Part shown: one piece after another, positions 2,967 to 58,243 of the stretch
Layout: every line of letters begins with the position of its first letter
Position numbering within the stretch: position 1 is the stretch's first letter
NCBI RefSeq assembly: GCF_014699005.1
Contig: NZ_JACWZY010000003.1
Location: 186,001-250,000, forward strand
Direction of reading: 5' to 3'
Length of the DNA stretch: 64,000 nt
From: Spirosoma profusum
GTDB taxonomy: Bacteria > Bacteroidota > Bacteroidia > Cytophagales > Spirosomataceae
Program-made: the position numbers and the translations under genes
The notes under the pieces: generated by a model
What the model saw: the letters and a program-made list of their open reading frames with translations, nothing else
Database searches by the model: none
Told to the model about the DNA's origin: nothing

Positions 2967-3024
2967 TAAATCCCCTGAAGGGGACTTGGTTCGTGTTCAA
3001 ACAAAGTCCCCTTCAGGGGATTTA
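2967..3024. repeat. inverted repeat TAAATCCCCTGAAGGGGACT (class B)
   Basis: Perfect 21-bp arms at 2967-2987 and 3004-3024 flank a 16-bp loop; each arm is itself nearly palindromic (CCCCTGAAGGGG). A degenerate copy occurs at 4181-4247. It lies between the PME and GH43 genes and could act as a processing hairpin or is a dispersed element. Confidence 0.8.
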
Positions 3025-4180: not shown

Positions 4181-4247
4181 CTAAATCCCCTAAAGGACGG
4201 TCGGCCGCTGCCGGACTTTGTTAGCGTGCGGGCTAAGTCCCCTTTAA
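4181..4247. repeat. degenerate class B repeat carrying an inserted GC-rich module
   Basis: The left arm CTAAATCCCCTAAAGG (4181-4196) and right arm TAAGTCCCCTTTAA (4234-4247) match the repeat at 2967-3024. The left copy is interrupted at 4197-4212 by ACGGTCGGCCGCTGCC; removing these 16 bp gives CCCCTAAAGGGGACTTTG, almost the intact repeat sequence at 2972-2987. Confidence 0.6.
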
Positions 4248-13175: not shown

Positions 13176-13353
13176 GGTCTGGTAGCAAAGGTTTATACTA
13201 CCTAAGTCAAACAACTCGTCCGGAACCGCAAATGATTTTATTAATTAGAAGAAAATTACAATAAAACGGATAAGTACAACTTGATATTATTCGAATAATC
13301 CTAAAAGGTGTAAGTTGTAGATAATTGACAGAATAATCACTTGATTTAAGACT

Positions 13354-13462
13354 ATTGCTTTCGCGTGGGGCTTCGACAGGCTCAGCCTGACAGTCCACAT
13401 AAATTTGTTGATTCATGCTGGACTGTCAGGCTGAGCCTGTCGAAGCCCCACGCGAAAGCAAT
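13354..13462. repeat. perfect 44-bp inverted repeat (dispersed palindrome, class D)
   Basis: Arms 13354-13397 and 13419-13462 are exact inverted copies around a 21-bp loop. The arm contains CTTCGACAGGCTCAGCCTGA. A partial copy of the same sequence is at 35404-35428. It lies between the sigma factor and FecR genes, just after the sigma stop codon, so its hairpin could uncouple expression of the two genes. Confidence 0.9.
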
Positions 13463-13475
13463 ATGTTCACGTATT

Positions 13476-14501: not shown

Positions 14502-16457
14502 ATGAAAGCACATCTGCTGTTTCTCTTGCTATTAACCAGTAGTTCGTTGTTGGCTCAGACTAATTATGTGGTGCGTGGCCCAAATTCGACTACCCCTGGT
14601 ATGAACAATACCATTTTAGGTCCCAATGCGGGGAATTTGACACTGACGGGCCTGAACAATACGTTTATGGGATATATTGCTGGTCAAAACAATACATCTG
14701 GCAGTAGTAATGTATTTGTGGGAAGCAGTGCAGGACTAGCTAACACAGTCGGGACCGACAATACATTTTTGGGAACCTCTACGGGTAGAACTAATTCAGC
14801 AGGAACCGTTAATACATTTATAGGCAGTATTGCGGGGAGCAACAATACTACAGGAAATGGGAATACGTTCGTTGGTGCTTATGCAGGCGTAGCTAGTACT
14901 ACAGCCGCAAATAACACGTTTATAGGTGCTTTTGCTGGTCAAAAGAATACGTCAGGAGCATCTAATGTTTTTATGGGAGCCAATGCAGGTGTTAATAATA
15001 CAACGGGTTTCCAAAATACGTTTATAGGTACTAGTGCAGGGTTAAATAGCACCTCAGCGGTTAATAATACGTTTATAGGATCTTTAGCAGGTCATAATAA
15101 TACCGTAGGAAGTACGAATGTATTTATAGGTACTTTGGCAGGGTTCAGTAGCACAACAGCTAACAATAATATATTTGTAGGGGCTTTTGTCGGTCAAAAT
15201 AATACATCAGGTACTTCTAATGTACTTATGGGGACCCTTGCCGGATCTTCTAATACAACAGGGACCGACAATGCATTTTTCGGAACCTCCAGTGGTAAAG
15301 CCAACACAACAGGGAACGTAAATACGTTTATAGGCAGTATTGCGGGGACCAATAATACCACAGGTAGTGCCAATACGTTTATTGGCTCGTATGCAGGAGC
15401 CGCTAATACTACAGCCCTAAATAATACATTTATAGGATCTTTTGCAGGGCAAAACAACACGGTAGGTTCTCAGAACACGCTTATAGGTACTAATGCAGGT
15501 TTAAGCAGTACTTCAGCTATCGGCAGTACATTTATTGGGTCTTTTGCTGGCCAGAATAACACAACAGGGGGCGAAAACACGTTAATTGGAAACTCTGCGG
15601 GCTTTAAAAATACAACAGGTTTTTTCAATGAATTTATTGGCTCTTCATCGGGCCTGAATAATACAACAGGTTTCAGTAACATATTCATTGGGGCTCAGGC
15701 AGGGTATAATAATAGCAACGGAGGAGGCAATATCTTTATGGGATTTCATTCAGGTCTTAATAGTGTTAGTGGGTATAGTAATATCTTCTTAGGGGAAGGT
15801 GCAGGTGAGACGAACACGACAGGCAGTGGCAATCTAATGCTGGGTGCAAGCAGCAAACCGGCCAGCGGCACGCTTCAAAATGCAGTAGCCATCGGCACTA
15901 ATTCCAAAGTAGCACTCAGCAATGCTATCGTTTTAGGCGACCCTACTAATACCAGCATCGCAGTAGGCATCGGTACTGACTCTCCCCAATTTCCTCTCGA
16001 TGTACGCGGAATCATCAACTTACGGAACAATGGAACGCTCAAATTCAGTCACCTGATAAATCCCTTACTGCGTAACGGATACACCGACCAGTTTTTAACC
16101 GTCAACGAAAACGGGGAGACGGTGCTGGCTAAACATCGTTTGCACATCAACGACGTAAATCAGTGGAGCGATAAGGTATTCTCCTCAACGTATCAGTTAA
16201 AGCCGCTGGCTCAGGTAGAACAGCATATCCAGCAACACGGTCATTTACCTAACGTACCTTCAGCAGAGCAGGTCGCGAAAGAGGGTATCGATCTGGTTAA
16301 GCTGAATGCTACGTTGCTGGAAAAGATTGAAGAGTTGACTTTGTATAGCATTCAATTGGCTAAGGACAACCAGAAGTTGCAGGAAAAAGACCAGCAACGT
16401 CAGCAGGAATTTAACGAATTAAAACAACTCGTTAAGCAACTCCTGGATAAGAAATAA
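14502..16457 (+). CDS. repeat-built secreted surface protein with adhesin-like beta-roll and C-terminal coiled coil
   Basis: The 651-residue protein has a signal peptide (MKAHLLFLLLLTSSSLLAQ), then about 24 tandem 17-residue units of consensus G-x-x-N-T-F-I-G-x-x-A-G-x-N-N-T-T (residues 33-440), resembling the trimeric-autotransporter head repeats of YadA/Hia type. After GIGTDSPQFPLDVRG comes a module common at the end of Bacteroidota surface and tail-fibre-like proteins (VNQWSDKVFSSTYQLKPL, VEQHIQQHGHLPNVPSAEQV, LLEKIEELTLY) and a final coiled coil rich in Q, E and K. It probably forms a trimeric fibre at the surface; trimerisation is inferred. Low-complexity repeats make this gene prone to length change. 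Confidence 0.85.
   Translation: MKAHLLFLLLLTSSSLLAQTNYVVRGPNSTTPGMNNTILGPNAGNLTLTGLNNTFMGYIAGQNNTSGSSNVFVGSSAGLANTVGTDNTFLGTSTGRTNSAGTVNTFIGSIAGSNNTTGNGNTFVGAYAGVASTTAANNTFIGAFAGQKNTSGASNVFMGANAGVNNTTGFQNTFIGTSAGLNSTSAVNNTFIGSLAGHNNTVGSTNVFIGTLAGFSSTTANNNIFVGAFVGQNNTSGTSNVLMGTLAGSSNTTGTDNAFFGTSSGKANTTGNVNTFIGSIAGTNNTTGSANTFIGSYAGAANTTALNNTFIGSFAGQNNTVGSQNTLIGTNAGLSSTSAIGSTFIGSFAGQNNTTGGENTLIGNSAGFKNTTGFFNEFIGSSSGLNNTTGFSNIFIGAQAGYNNSNGGGNIFMGFHSGLNSVSGYSNIFLGEGAGETNTTGSGNLMLGASSKPASGTLQNAVAIGTNSKVALSNAIVLGDPTNTSIAVGIGTDSPQFPLDVRGIINLRNNGTLKFSHLINPLLRNGYTDQFLTVNENGETVLAKHRLHINDVNQWSDKVFSSTYQLKPLAQVEQHIQQHGHLPNVPSAEQVAKEGIDLVKLNATLLEKIEELTLYSIQLAKDNQKLQEKDQQRQQEFNELKQLVKQLLDKK
14598..15821 (+). 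repeat. 51-bp tandem coding repeats, about 24 units
   Basis: Each 17-codon unit keeps N-x-F-x-G at fixed spacing and N-N-T-T at its end. A higher-order period of ten units (510 bp) is visible: units 4-7 (GTDNTFLG, GTVNTFIGSIAG, GNGNTFVGAYAG, AANNTFIGAFAGQ) recur as units 14-17 (GTDNAFFG, GNVNTFIGSIAG, GSANTFIGSYAG, ALNNTFIGSFAGQ). Confidence 0.9.
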
Positions 16458-39855: not shown

Positions 39856-40119
39856 AAGAGTCGCAACCTACTACGTAGTAGTTCAAAGAACGTTTTAACA
39901 GCTGATTGTTCTATCTAACCAACTTAAACGGGGCAACAAAAGAATATTTTATAAAAAAAATAGAGCACACAATTGCTTAAAAATTGAGCTAAACCGAAAC
40001 ACTACGTTTGAGACGAGTACTATAGAATTTCAGAACTATAACAATGAAGCTGTTTAAACTTTAAGGAAAATCCCCAAAGCTGTGTGAGTTTTGCGGTGTG
40101 AACTTTCATTAAACACAAC
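39856..40119. other. AT-rich intergenic stretch
   Basis: No gene is seen. It contains the perfect 14-bp palindrome CTACTACGTAGTAG (39868-39881) shortly after umuC and a sequence (GAAGCTGTTTAAACTTTAAG near 40046) that may be the left end of the IS5-type element that follows. Confidence 0.4.
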
Positions 40120-40127
40120 AATGGGGC

Positions 40128-40143
40128 GGGGCCGCCCGCGCGG
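40128..40143. repeat. 16-bp GC-rich module, copy 1
   Basis: GGGGCCGCCCGCGCGG near the 5' end of the dead IS5 transposase. It differs by one base from copies 2 and 3. Confidence 0.75.
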
Positions 40144-40325
40144 TTATGGACAAAGCTATGATTGAAGCGTGGACTTGAGACAACAGTCCCTTTGGCCGAG
40201 GTGGTGGAATGCATTTTTCACCGACTCAAAACAGGTTGTCAGTGGCGTGAATTACTTACCAAACAATTCTTTAGTGATTAGGTCCTGAATTGGAATTCGG
40301 TCTTTTACTACTATAATAAATGGAC

Positions 40326-40341
40326 GGGGCCGCCCGTGCGG
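40326..40341. repeat. 16-bp GC-rich module, copy 2
   Basis: GGGGCCGCCCGTGCGG lies between codons for NKW and KADGW. Deleting exactly 16 bp gives AAATGGACTAAGGCCGAT, encoding KWTKAD in one frame. Confidence 0.85.
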
Positions 40342-40589
40342 TAAGGCCGATGGCTGGAAACGTGTCTGGATCAATATTTTGCGTAAAAACCTCAAGTACC
40401 TGGATTTGTCAAGCATCGAATTTGATGGTAGCCATACGCCTGCCAAGAATGGCGGAGATGCGGTGGGCTATCAAGGCCGAAAGGCCTGCAACACAACAGA
40501 TGCGTTATTTTTGTCAGATAATCAGGGTGTTATGCTTGCTATGTCTACCCCTCAAGAAGGCCAGCACCATGACTTATTCCAGATTCAGC

Positions 40590-40605
40590 GGGGCCGCCCG
40601 TGCGG
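40590..40605. repeat. 16-bp GC-rich module, copy 3
   Basis: GGGGCCGCCCGTGCGG, identical to copy 2. Deleting it joins CAGATTCAGC to TATTCTTAGAG and restores the transposase frame FQIQLFLE, apart from one TAA further on. Confidence 0.85.
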
Positions 40606-40733
40606 TATTCTTAGAGTAACTATGTAGTTTACTCAAAGCGGCTGATAGTACTCTGAAAAGGCTGTTTCTGAACGCCGATTCGGGCTTTGACTCGGCTGAC
40701 TTTTTAGTGGATACCGACTTCGGCGACCCTTGA

Positions 40734-44061: not shown

Positions 44062-45060
44062 ATGAGGTACGTACCCATATATGCATTAGGTTTGCTGCTT
44101 GCTTTGTACTCTTCCGGTAAAGCCCTGAACGAAACTGACCTGCCAACAGATACGATCAAGCCCAAAACCAAAGAACTAATCACGGCAACTGTACCTAACA
44201 GTATCACTCGTACCATCAAGCAAGATCGAAAGGGTAATATTTGGATAGCAACCTTTGGTGGTGTTTTTCGATACGATGGAAAATCATTTACCAATATCAC
44301 CAGTCAAGTGAGTAAGGCTCGTTTTTAGTCTGTATTAGAAGATAGAAAAGGGAATTTTTGGTTCTCCTCAATCGGTTCAGGGGTTTATTATTACGATGGG
44401 AAATCCTTTCAACAGTTTACAACCAAGGATGGCCTTGCCAGTGATCAGGTTACTGATATGTATGAAGATAAAGCCGGCAATATTTGGTTCGGCACTGATG
44501 GCACTGAAGGAGGAGCCAGCCGGTACGATGGGAAATCCTTTCGGAATTTTACCAGGAAAGATGGACTGACCAGTAATAATGTTCGTTCGATCATTGAAGA
44601 CAAAACCGGGAAATTATGGTTTGGCACCGAGGGCGAACTCTGTGTTTATGATGGAAAAACATTTACCACCTTTACGGATAAACATCTGACGAATGTTCGT
44701 TCGATCATCGAAGATAAGAAAGGGGCTATTTGGCTGGGTGGCAAAGAAGGCCTTTGGCGCTATGACGGCAGCACCTTTACCAATTTTACTCAGAATTTTG
44801 TGGGGTATGTCTACGAAGATACAAAAGGCAACATTTGGATAAGTTCACGTAAGGATACTGGCGTAAGTGAAAAGTTAAGTTGGTTACTCTCCCGTTATGA
44901 TGAAAGATCCTTGTCCACTACAAAGCCTACGGTAACCGAACTCAATCCAGAAGTAGGCATGCTTTTTGGGATTTCAGAAGCGACTGATGGCAGTATTTGG
45001 TTTGGCTCTGGTGGGGTGTATCGGTATGATGGAACTACCATTACCGACTTTAATCGGTAA
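44062..45060 (+). pseudogene. two-component-regulator-type propeller (Reg_prop) protein stopped by one nonsense codon
   Basis: The reading frame runs from ATG 44062 (MRYVPIYALGLLLALYSSG, a signal peptide) to TAA 45060 with a single in-frame TAG at 44326-44328. The blades continue unchanged after the stop (SVLEDRKGNFWFSSIGSGVY). The duplicate gene downstream has Gln at this position (RFQDVLEDRRGN), so CAG-to-TAG is the likely change. About eight repeats of the form GNIWF-x-GVYRYDGKSF are present. Without readthrough only an 88-residue stub is made. It lacks the C-terminal YceI domain of its neighbour. Confidence 0.85.
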
Positions 45061-45095
45061 ACAGGGTCAAAAGTAATGTGTATAGGTATTTCTTA

Positions 45096-45372
45096 GAACG
45101 CCCGAATTTTGACGCAGATACATGAAATCTATTTCGTCTCAAGTAGGAGCGTTTTTGCGAGACCGTTGTATAGGCAACATTTTTGTACAATATGCCCACC
45201 TGCTTGGAGGAAAAAATCCACAGCAGTCAGTAAAAGCAACTTTTACGTTTCGTTAACATTCTTTTACTATCCCTCCAACGCATCTCAGCACAAAGACTGG
45301 TAGGTTTACGGTCCGCCGTTGCGACCGTCCGCGGCTGCGGTTGACATTCGTTGGTATTAAAAAAGAAAAAGG
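45096..45372. repeat. duplicated leader, copy 2
   Basis: Counterpart of 43838-44061 before the intact propeller-YceI gene. It is interrupted near its end by 32 GC-rich bp (45308-45339) that the first copy lacks. Confidence 0.7.
45308..45339. repeat. tandem pair of 16-bp GC-rich modules
   Basis: ACGGTCCGCCGTTGCG (45308-45323) and ACCGTCCGCGGCTGCG (45324-45339) are 13/16 identical to each other. Removing both joins TAGGTTT to GTTGACATT, matching TAGATTTGTT in the duplicated leader of the upstream paralogue. Confidence 0.6.
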
Positions 45373-47004
45373 ATGAACTACTCCCGCGTATATGCATTGC
45401 TCTTAATGTCTGTTTTTCTCACTTCCTGTGGGGGACAAAACCAAACAAACGTACCAAAAGATAACATCAAGTCCGAAACTAAAGACATCGGGCCCAACAT
45501 AATGGTTCGCAATATAAAAAAAGGCACAAACGGCTCCATTTTGATTGCTGGCCCCAACAACGCATCATTTGGTGATGTTTTTCGATACGATGGAAAATCG
45601 TTTACTAATCTTACCAGTAAAATAGGTCAGCACAGATTCCAGGATGTCCTGGAAGATCGACGAGGAAATAGTTGGTTCGCTTCTACTGATTCAGGCGTTT
45701 ATTATTACAACGGGAAATCCATTCAACATTTCACTACCACGGAGGGTCTTGCCCATAATCAAGTTATGTCTGTTTATGAAGATAAAGCCGGCATTATTTG
45801 GTTCGGCACTGGCGGTGGAATAAGTCGTTACGATGGGAAATCTTTTCAAAATTTTACATCTCCGAACGCTCCGCTTTTTTATAAAGAAGGACATTGGAAT
45901 AATGAAATTAATACAATCATTGAAGATAAAACAGGGAAATTGTGGGTTGGCACAAGGGGCGACGCCTTTGTTTATGACGGGAAAAAATTTACCACTTTAA
46001 CCCATAAAGGCGAACCCTTTCTCGGCGTTTGGGGTATAATGCAAGATAGAAAAGGCAATATTTGGCTCAGCGGTTACAATGGCTTTAAAGGAGGCCGTCG
46101 ACCCGGTGGCCTCTATCGCTATGACGGCAGTACCTTTACTAAGGTATCGGAGAGAGGTGCTTATGCTATAATCGAAGATAAAAAAGGAAACATCTGGACT
46201 ACTGGACCGGTAAATCCTGCTAATTTGACGGTCCAGGCACTTTCCCGTTATGATGCAAAGTCCTTGTATAGTAAGGAGCCCATTGTAACCGAAATTATGT
46301 CAGGAAAGGCTTTCTATGGGATTTCGGAAGCTAACGACGGAAGTATTTGGTTTGGCGATGCGAATGGAGTGTATCGTTATGATGGAAAGACAATCACGGA
46401 CTTTTATAATAAAGAGGGCCAGAAAAAATATATCATAGATACGAAGCAAAGTGTTATAATATGGAAAGGTTCTATGCTACTTGGTGCATGGGAAGGTTCT
46501 AAGTTTCTTGGTGATGGTACCAGTACAGGGGACGTCGATCTATCAAAAGGAGAATTGTTGATCGAAAACCGTCATCTGGTGGGCGGTGCAGTTGAAGTCG
46601 ATATGAATACAATTGAAAATTTTGTTGATCAACGTTCACTCAATCAATTACCTCCATTTTTTGATGTCAAAAAATTCCCTGTTTCTACATTCGCCATTAC
46701 GAAGGTTGAAACAGGGAATGATGGAAATACAAAAGTTCCAAATGATGGAAGTATAAGAGTTAATGAAGGAAATATAAAAGTTACAGGGAATCTGACCATG
46801 GAAGGTATCACGAAGGCAGTTACTTTTCCAGCCAAAATGCAATTTAAGGACGGAATGGACGGAACTGTCGAGATGAATGGCATGCTGATCATTGATCGAA
46901 CAGAGTGGGGTATCGATTATGGATCAGAAAAGCACTTTTTTAAGTCTGGTGATGCAATTTTGGACGAGGTTAAACTCTTTATGAAAATCGTAGCAAAAAA
47001 ATAA
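45373..47004 (+). CDS. lipoprotein fusing Reg_prop propeller to a YceI domain
   Basis: The 543-residue product has a lipoprotein signal (LLLMSVFLTSCGGQNQTN), then about eight Reg_prop blades (GNSWFASTDSGVYYYNGKS, GIIWFGTGGGISRYDGKSF, GKLWVGTRGDAFVYDGKKF, GSIWFGDANGVYRYDGKTI), and from about residue 358 a YceI-like lipocalin domain (YIIDTKQSVIIWKGSMLLGA, GDVDLSKGELLIENRHLVGG, VTGNLTMEGITKAVTFPAKM, LIIDRTEWGIDYGS). YceI domains bind polyisoprenoid lipids. A propeller normally found in front of histidine kinases is here attached to a lipid-binding barrel with no kinase. Probable site is the outer or inner membrane, facing the periplasm or outside. It is a tandem paralogue of the pseudogene upstream. 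Confidence 0.88.
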   Translation: MNYSRVYALLLMSVFLTSCGGQNQTNVPKDNIKSETKDIGPNIMVRNIKKGTNGSILIAGPNNASFGDVFRYDGKSFTNLTSKIGQHRFQDVLEDRRGNSWFASTDSGVYYYNGKSIQHFTTTEGLAHNQVMSVYEDKAGIIWFGTGGGISRYDGKSFQNFTSPNAPLFYKEGHWNNEINTIIEDKTGKLWVGTRGDAFVYDGKKFTTLTHKGEPFLGVWGIMQDRKGNIWLSGYNGFKGGRRPGGLYRYDGSTFTKVSERGAYAIIEDKKGNIWTTGPVNPANLTVQALSRYDAKSLYSKEPIVTEIMSGKAFYGISEANDGSIWFGDANGVYRYDGKTITDFYNKEGQKKYIIDTKQSVIIWKGSMLLGAWEGSKFLGDGTSTGDVDLSKGELLIENRHLVGGAVEVDMNTIENFVDQRSLNQLPPFFDVKKFPVSTFAITKVETGNDGNTKVPNDGSIRVNEGNIKVTGNLTMEGITKAVTFPAKMQFKDGMDGTVEMNGMLIIDRTEWGIDYGSEKHFFKSGDAILDEVKLFMKIVAKK

Positions 47005-47210: not shown

Positions 47211-47520
47211 TTGAGCAAAACCTTGGTCAACTTTGTGCTTTTCAAAAGCATGAGCCGCCTTGACGATCCGTATGACAATGCCTTCATAGAGTCTTATTGG
47301 TCGAGATTGAACAGAGCTGCCCGCGCTGCGTTGATTCTGCAGGGCATATTTGAGAATCTTGAGGACGCTCGTACCGAGTTATTTGAATACATCGAGTGCT
47401 ACTATAATCGCAAACGTAAGCACTCATCATTAGGCTACAAAAGCTCCAAACAGATTGAAAATGAGTATTTTCTAAATTTATCAAAAACTACACACTAAAC
47501 TGTCCCGCTAAATCGGACCA
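47211..47520 (+). mobile_element. 3' remnant of an IS3-family insertion sequence
   Basis: The frame 47211-47498 matches the end of an IS3 OrfB integrase (SMSRLDDPYDNAFIESYWSR, IFENLEDARTELFEYIECYY, NRKRKHSSLGYKSSKQIE), including the catalytic Glu region and the final KRKHSSLGYKSP-like motif. The first two-thirds are missing. The sequence ACTAAACTGTCCCGCTAAAT (47496-47515) is the usual right terminal inverted repeat. In the frame, RLN is followed by an extra RAARA that comes from AGAGCTGCCCGCGCTG (47313-47328), which resembles the GC-rich modules in the IS5 remnant. Confidence 0.88.
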
Positions 47521-57916: not shown

Positions 57917-58243
57917 ATGAGTCAGGATCAAATCACCGAAGAAAAACCGGAGATCGTACCGGTAGCCGCTGTCCGCTTAACCCGGGAAGAGATTCCCAAC
58001 CGGCAAAAACGTACCCATGAATACCATGAGCTGGGTACGCTCAACTTCGATCAGGGCAAAGTACGCTGCTTTGCGCACAAACGTACCGGTGGGCTGCTGT
58101 TCGTTATGCCGGACGGCACCGGCTACCTGGCCGATACGGCTACTCTGGGCAATCAGTGTTACAAATACTGGGTAAAAACCAGTCTGGAGCCCGAACCGGC
58201 TATACCGGCCGAGGAGACACCTGCGGTCGAATCAACCACCTAA
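57917..58243 (+). CDS. phage protein of unknown function
   Basis: From ATG 57917 the product has 108 residues (MSQDQITEEKPEIVPVAAVR) with a central Y-rich and G-rich sheet (LLFVMPDGTGYLADTATLGN) and an acidic tail ending VESTT. No family recognised. Confidence 0.55.
   Translation: MSQDQITEEKPEIVPVAAVRLTREEIPNRQKRTHEYHELGTLNFDQGKVRCFAHKRTGGLLFVMPDGTGYLADTATLGNQCYKYWVKTSLEPEPAIPAEETPAVESTT

Follow-up and report, generated by a model that had tools for sequence, protein, structure and literature searches.

How does a single transposase remnant come to carry the same GC-rich 16-mer three times? The remnant lies in the window, by which we mean the whole 64-kb stretch of DNA analysed here, taken from the 8.73-Mb genome of Spirosoma profusum (G000, the own genome below). 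The first-pass annotation had read the sequence as three copies of a module in a decayed IS5 transposase, and a pattern search of the window did recover GGGGCCGCCCGYGCGG as exact + strand matches at 40128, 40326 and 40590. The gene and its inserts are as follows.

40042..40703, + strand: decayed IS5-family transposase region with its upstream end, target of units 1-3, delimited by DNA match to relatives
40127..40142, + strand: unit 1, CGGGGCCGCCCGCGCG, 5′ of GT at the beginning of the IS5-family gene; 16-nt gap in L066 and L049
40325..40340, + strand: unit 2, CGGGGCCGCCCGTGCG, between TGGA and GTAA; clean 16-nt gap in six of seven relatives
40589..40604, + strand: unit 3, CGGGGCCGCCCGTGCG, 5′ of GT; clean 16-nt gap in four of six relatives

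Ten relatives of the gene, whose matches to PF13340, PF01609 and NF033580 (the last below its curated cut-off) provide the IS5 assignment, were aligned to test the three units for empty alleles. At copy 2, six of the seven spanning relatives (L066, L048, L049, L050, L051 and L052) have a single clean 16-nt gap, and the gap of the seventh, L047, also amounts to 16 nt, split in two. At copy 3 the gap is single and clean in L047, L066, L048 and L049 and fragmented in L050 and L052. Copy 1 yielded a clean gap in only one of seven relatives, L049, the others being blurred by a 32-nt deletion close by in the window copy; a separate comparison with the window copy gave a clean gap in L066. A same-genome copy, 68% identical, likewise lacks 16 nt where copies 1 and 2 stand. 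The IS5-family transposase remnant is interrupted by three exact 16-bp inserts that its relatives do not have. The gene is older than the inserts, as had been proposed, since intact relatives lack the bases and show 16-nt gaps at the same places; such unit-free relatives rule out that the units are ancestral bases of the IS.

The empty allele at copy 2 reads AAATGGA/GTAAAG and the occupied one AAATGGA[CGGGGCCGCCCGTGCG]GTAAGG (the slash marks the junction), which defines the unit as CGGGGCCGCCCGTGCG and the GT after it as host DNA. The window unit is CGGGGCCGCCCGYGCG at all three positions, each time 5′ of a host G, and a tandem triple in another genome (L079) has the identical register. The inserts seen in the first pass were real, but their register was off, the true unit starting one base further left. 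No target duplication accompanies the window units, as had also been noted.

In the window alone, three matches at up to three mismatches are no more than mildly unusual, being attained in 8 of 100 shuffles; the case rests on genome-wide counts and empty alleles and not on the count in 64 kb. A covariance-model search of the window against Rfam gave no match at gathering scores. With the reversed pattern as control, the exact 16-mer was found 17 times in the own genome (control 0) and in 44 of 99 relatives, with a maximum of 102 in one 4.6-Mb genome and a single control match across all 99. The wider family pattern, SGGNNCGCCSNYGCGG, gave 95 matches in the own genome versus 1. All 35 congeners exceed their own control (the lowest at 9 versus 1, 9 versus 2 and 11 versus 4), and among the 25 other members of the family, six genomes have no match, the maximum is 141 and G058 falls below its control. 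Outside the family, one of 38 genomes of the same order stands out (G076, 73 versus 9), and none does in a sample of 395 genomes from the phylum, where the highest count was 6 versus 1. A search for carriers of one 20-mer returned at least 117 stretches; names taken from 80 of them include, among the matches listed, Spirosoma, Larkinella, Runella, Rudanella, Emticicia and Dyadobacter. Several 20-mer matches in GC-rich actinobacteria and proteobacteria are probably due to chance, and some matches in very GC-rich genomes and four in viral contigs may be as well. The loose pattern SSSNNNNSSSNTGCGGT, taken as a whole, is not enriched (127 versus 118). In G047, GGGTCCGCCCCCGCGG occurs six times among the matches listed (e.g. 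C59, C91, C221, C231, C240 and C359) and may represent a further unit subfamily or a separate repeat.

Controls close to zero (0; 1 in 99 genomes; 1 versus 95) and a phylum sample at background exclude chance or GC content as the source. A sequencing adapter is an unlikely origin, given strong signals confined to one family, many depositors, and C/T and paired variants. The first-pass annotation had named beforehand two outcomes as refuting its reading, the same bases in intact relatives and 16-mers at chance frequency, and neither occurred: the relatives are unit-free, and the counts (17 versus 0 for the exact 16-mer, 95 versus 1 for the family pattern) lie far above chance.

Genome-wide counts and empty alleles also substantiate the suspected family of micro-insertions. 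It had been described as GC-rich, a trait that does not define it: the family is defined by length and covarying structure, not by a single sequence. Three related sites had been suggested in the window, of which 4197-4212 is a unit and 45308-45339 two units in tandem, while 47313-47328 does not score as one.

4197..4212, + strand: unit ACGGTCGGCCGCTGCC, within the hairpin repeat CCCCTAAAGG/GGACTT; model score 19.2
45308..45323, + strand: unit ACGGTCCGCCGTTGCG, first of a tandem pair, intergenic; model score 23.0
45324..45339, + strand: unit ACCGTCCGCGGCTGCG, second of the tandem pair, then host GT; stem CCG/CGG

The 15-nt core of the unit at 45308..45323, with N as its 11th base, occurs 46 times in the own genome (control 0), and the CCGTCCGCGGCTGCGGT stretch of its neighbour has a second copy at C41. 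The hairpin repeat around 4197..4212 was compared by eye only with its unit-free counterpart CCCCTGAAGGGGACTT at 2967-3024. At 58115-58130 on the − strand, CCAGGTAGCCGGTGCC precedes GT with a weak unit score of 14.1. The window further contains perfect or near-perfect inverted repeats of 40-45 nt at 13353-13463 and 1038-1149, of the TCGACAGGCTCAGCCTGACA and TGCTTCGTTCCTCAGCATGACA types, both of which carry unit inserts elsewhere in the own genome; an apparently coding array of ~51-bp repeats at 14655-15745, with 15 copies in one family among those listed; and, at 44248-46356, two paralogous gene copies with internal repeats, ~1.3 kb apart and 77% alike over one 250-nt stretch.

Pairwise alignment of the fetched loci, with every insertion between well-matched flanks counted as an event, produced 463 distinct events, some of them double-counted in shifted registers and a few of those of 14-16 nt being ordinary repeats. 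Their number declines from 1 nt (202 events) before a spike at 16 nt (137), with 9 at 14 nt, 22 at 15 nt, none at 17 nt, one at 18 nt and two at 32 nt, the last being whole units in tandem; because loci were often fetched for carrying a unit or matching a unit-bearing IS, the spike shows a fixed length and not the share of units among insertions. Among the 137 events of 16 nt, 122 pass a structural score and 15 fail, leaving 109 unique events with the consensus NNGGNNNGCCNNNGCN and a tail that is mostly TGCG, AGCG or CGCG.

Covarying pairs in the 109 unique events were found by mutual information against shuffled columns. The Watson-Crick share is 92% for bases 1-12, 98% for 2-11 and 96% (105/109) for 7-16, percentages raised by the inclusion of these three pairs in the admission score; the other pairs did not belong to it, among them 1-5 at 94%. 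Loop base 6 and the first host base 3′ of the insert are Watson-Crick partners in 100 of 109 events (C6-G 90, T6-A 10), the rest being G6-A (5), T6-G (3) and A6-G (1); G6 goes with host A in 5/5 events and is thus not a Watson-Crick case. Weaker associations link base 13 to the preceding host base (A-A 31/54, G-T 29/41, T-T 11/12) and base 5 to the second host base after the insert (G-T 51/76, A-C 12/15, T-T 14/17). Since homologous sites are not independent, the covariation z-scores are upper limits. In another 318 sites, A follows T6 in 20/24 and G6 in 7/10, and G follows C6 in 277/283, a figure inflated by fetch patterns that required G. Compensatory changes keep the unit structure, namely the stem of bases 1-4 with 9-12, the pair 7-16, an invariant 8-15, and base 6 with host base 17. 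The free-strand folding energy of the units is unremarkable (DNA z-scores of -0.3 to -1.6), so that the fold may count only when the unit sits in a protein complex or is paired with its target.

Structured 16-mers, nearly constant in length and diverse in sequence, have been placed precisely on the 5′ side of a host G or A, with no duplication of the target. They also insert beside or inside older units, as in the L079 triple and in L090, where one unit lies within another, and separate copies of a gene have them at shared sites. Constant length, lack of duplication and preference for a G(T) target are what one would expect of footprints left by the excision of a larger element with an insertion site 5′ of GT; the many unit sequences with internal covariation and the 32-nt tandem insertions of whole units speak against such an origin, which we regard as very improbable.

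The reading that we favour, and consider probable by a modest measure, is that the 16-mers are SDR-like, ultra-small mobile hairpins whose loop helps choose the target and which are moved by a trans-acting enzyme. The unit would move in the form of a short hairpin, single-stranded RNA or ssDNA, whose loop would pair across the 3′ junction with the final two bases of the unit and the host base next to them; through this pairing, base 6 would help pick the target, C6 with G and T6 with A. A trans-acting enzyme would then join hairpin to target. Selection would remove inserts from functional genes, which would explain why units are found in insertion sequences, in genes of conjugative elements and in intergenic repeats; there they rank as a major cause of frameshifts. 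Mobility is supported by a copy number that varies from 0 to 141 per genome within one family, with controls near zero; it is deduced from compared sequences, not from insertions watched happening. We found no donor and no moving enzyme for the units. In G018, the one genome tested for replication-strand bias (58 sites, all positions tried as origin), the best asymmetry was 10, against a shuffle mean of 13.6 with 409 of 500 shuffles at or above the observed value; with strand random along this genome, insertion coupled to the lagging strand is not supported there. The random strand, the unremarkable free-strand folding and the combination of G6 with host A all count against the favoured reading.

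The SDR of Nostoc and its relatives are reportedly very small mobile repeats of 21-27 nt, restricted to one bacterial group, the cyanobacteria, and are said to have a common secondary structure, compensatory changes and nested insertions. The 16-nt units are like them in their compensatory changes, empty alleles and nested insertions, and differ in being 16 nt long, in belonging to Spirosomataceae, in matching a loop base to the junction host base and in heavily loading transposase genes. Cyanobacterial SDR would seem to be the nearest precedent. The SDR work is that of Elhai et al. 2008, cited in passages of PMC4390886 and PMC2884548.

Passages of PMC6006769 describe how, in IS200/IS605 elements, short internal bases pair with the bases of the cleavage and target junctions. 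The units show a comparable guide complementarity, with base 6 pairing with host base 17 in 100/109 and 7 with 16 in 105/109 events, but, set against those passages, their guide lies in the hairpin loop and not 5′ of the hairpin foot. They also differ in having 16 nt with neither coding capacity nor a transposase, and in lacking a lagging-strand orientation bias (G018, 58 sites). IS200 TnpA is an improbable driver: its own-genome copies have no unit at their ends and carry end hairpins of another kind. The IS200 TnpA gene at C38:44189-44462 of the own genome is itself broken by units.

REP and REPIN sequences are, according to PMC3116915, PMC6006769 and PMC3733652, short, palindromic, dispersed DNA that occurs as singlets and inverted pairs with a tag beside the hairpin; REPs are extragenic, at least 20 nt long, marked by a GTAG/GTGG tag and tied to RAYT (TnpA_REP). 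The units share the small size, palindromy, dispersal, singlets and inverted pairs, and a tag next to the hairpin. They could accordingly be REP-type sequences moved by a RAYT (Y1 HUH) transposase, as would be suggested by a hairpin next to a short conserved tag, by inverted pairs with a spacing of about 50-100 bp and by guide-like junction pairing (described in PMC6006769 for IS200/IS605 and REP recognition). Their 16-nt consensus NNGGNNNGCCNNNGCN, however, lacks the 5′ GTAG/GTGG tetranucleotide, and they are often intragenic, with 35 of 83 own sites touching transposase homology and 60 units on IS110 genes. Nor do they track RAYT: no match at E<=0.001 was obtained in the own genome or in G031, which has 125 pattern matches, RAYT matches occur in G039 and G055, which are unit-free, and of 30 RAYT loci 28 lack a unit and two have one. 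RAYT presence does not follow the units, and RAYT is not supported as the driver; the REP-type reading as a whole appears quite unlikely. Inverted unit pairs ~90-100 bp apart are seen in the own genome at C16:114370/114465, C36:13513/13605 and C18:110545/110641, within longer inverted repeats whose flanks are shared on one side of the unit, as in REPINs.

The GC clusters of yeast mitochondria are known, from PMC4478555, for a main cluster of 42 bp, AG target nucleotides and footprints with two AG sets, and, by the title of a reference therein, for tandem arrays. They resemble the units as short GC-rich mobile DNA and differ in being organellar and 42 bp long. In the open-access literature, we found neither a description of 16-bp hairpin inserts from Spirosoma or Bacteroidetes nor a loop-to-host-base junction rule for such repeats.

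The distribution of the units raises the further question of whether mobile DNA is hit by design. Transposase-like homology is touched by 35 of the 83 own sites (nine loci) and is present less than 500 nt away from another 3; the remaining 45 have none, as judged with a reference set of 38 transposase fragments picked by eye; many of the 45 are, by eye, short palindromic or repeated intergenic sequences. A Pfam scan of 161 of 166 open fragments beside these sites (five duplicates or near-duplicates dropped) found rve, IS110, DDE and Y1 families plus many housekeeping genes, the latter within ~420 nt of units; none of the own sites could be placed within a conserved, non-mobile gene by this coarse screen. 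Rejoining of open reading frames over 154 sites gained more than 30 aa in 15 (9.7%), versus 7.5% at random positions, a weak difference to which we give no weight. In G031, three contigs start with one stretch bearing an identical unit, which suggests that a hit IS has spread (its identity as an IS being our own reading). By eye, a unit in G076 (L031, C344:11052) lies directly before a CRISPR-repeat-like sequence (GTTCCCCGC...GGGGATGGAAAC).

Aligned to an intact congener copy (L215), the own IS110 gene at C4:184125-185305 has seven inserts, of which six measure 16 nt and one a net 15 nt; a second congener copy (L216), aligned from after the first site, is without the remaining six. The inserts are on both strands and of five different sequences, and the aligned columns show no other gap and 4.8% substitution over 1083 columns. 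Private changes in the own copy comprise 12 synonymous, 7 nonsynonymous and no stop, compared with 22 and 4 in L215 and 16 and 36 in L216, the last spoiled by a misaligned start. Seven inserts and no other indel imply that insertion is fast relative to neutral decay or that the gene tolerates the inserts. Across 14 IS110-bearing loci, some multi-copy or partly aligned and with a full open frame in only three references, there are 44 unit-size gaps, compared with 7 other indels that shift the frame and 4 that do not. Units are present at 19 of 46 IS110-matching loci, overlapping loci included. An IS110 locus in G011 has eleven units within 781 bp, and 11 are found in 8 kb of a Rudanella contig that bears exonuclease, Toprim and conjugation (YWFCY) genes. 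Different units occupy one IS110 position in different genomes at EHT/G (three stems), QYA/YRF (two) and APFE/YRS (two), and the KLA/CHAG site has four units, all TCGG-type with a GC target, the motif names being our own protein reading. Shared descent can explain some recurrent sites, but hardly those with different stems.

Tolerance would be explained if the units were skipped in expression, as micro-introns or by translational bypass, leaving the genes working. Translational bypass has a precedent in the byp elements of yeast mitochondria. The seven-unit IS110 copy, with no other lesion and 7 nonsynonymous against 12 synonymous private changes, and the existence of a unit-bearing IS in several copies would be in keeping with skipping. 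Units on both strands and breaks in all three codon phases (GAC/GTT, TGG A/GT, AA/G CTG) weigh against it, as does, within the limits of the coarse screen, the lack of own sites in conserved non-mobile genes; on account of the codon phases programmed bypass was rejected, and we consider skipping in any form highly improbable.

From a simple mobile element that inserts at random, one would expect less clustering than seven units in one 1.1-kb gene. Structured 16-mers might instead be written preferentially into mobile DNA, and inactivate it, by a system of the host or of an element, with an effect comparable to that of repeat-induced mutation in fungi. The IS110 gene with seven units, no other indel and 12 synonymous to 7 nonsynonymous private changes, the 44 to 7 ratio of unit-size gaps to other frameshifting indels, the two clusters of eleven and the recurrent sites at conserved IS110 motifs all fit such directed writing. 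Against it, 45 of the 83 own sites are without transposase homology, selection against hits in functional genes would yield a similar pattern, and no responsible system was found; on balance we think it unlikely. In its specific form, a Spirosomataceae machinery would write 16-mers into mobile DNA with base 6 matched to the host, and bases 13 and 5 matched more loosely, as a leading route of IS death; we hold this to be doubtful, if a little less so. The host match would then mean either that the unit picks its target by pairing or that it is partly copied from the target. Targeting of mobile DNA is possible, not proved.

The spread of very small palindromic repeats (REP, SDR, GC clusters) is a long-standing question, to which the Spirosomataceae units bring the advantages of a unit of only 16 nt, plentiful base-exact empty alleles and a rule of covariation between loop base and target base. 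That rule is clean and testable, and offers a way to look for the enzyme. The units appear to rank among the smallest mobile DNA known. If the inserts do target mobile DNA, they would constitute a new form of genome defence, and, were the writer reading true, a bacterial counterpart of repeat-induced mutation, in which conserved IS110 positions have been struck repeatedly by different units. A precise 16-nt writer with targets chosen by base pairing would be of interest to genome engineers.
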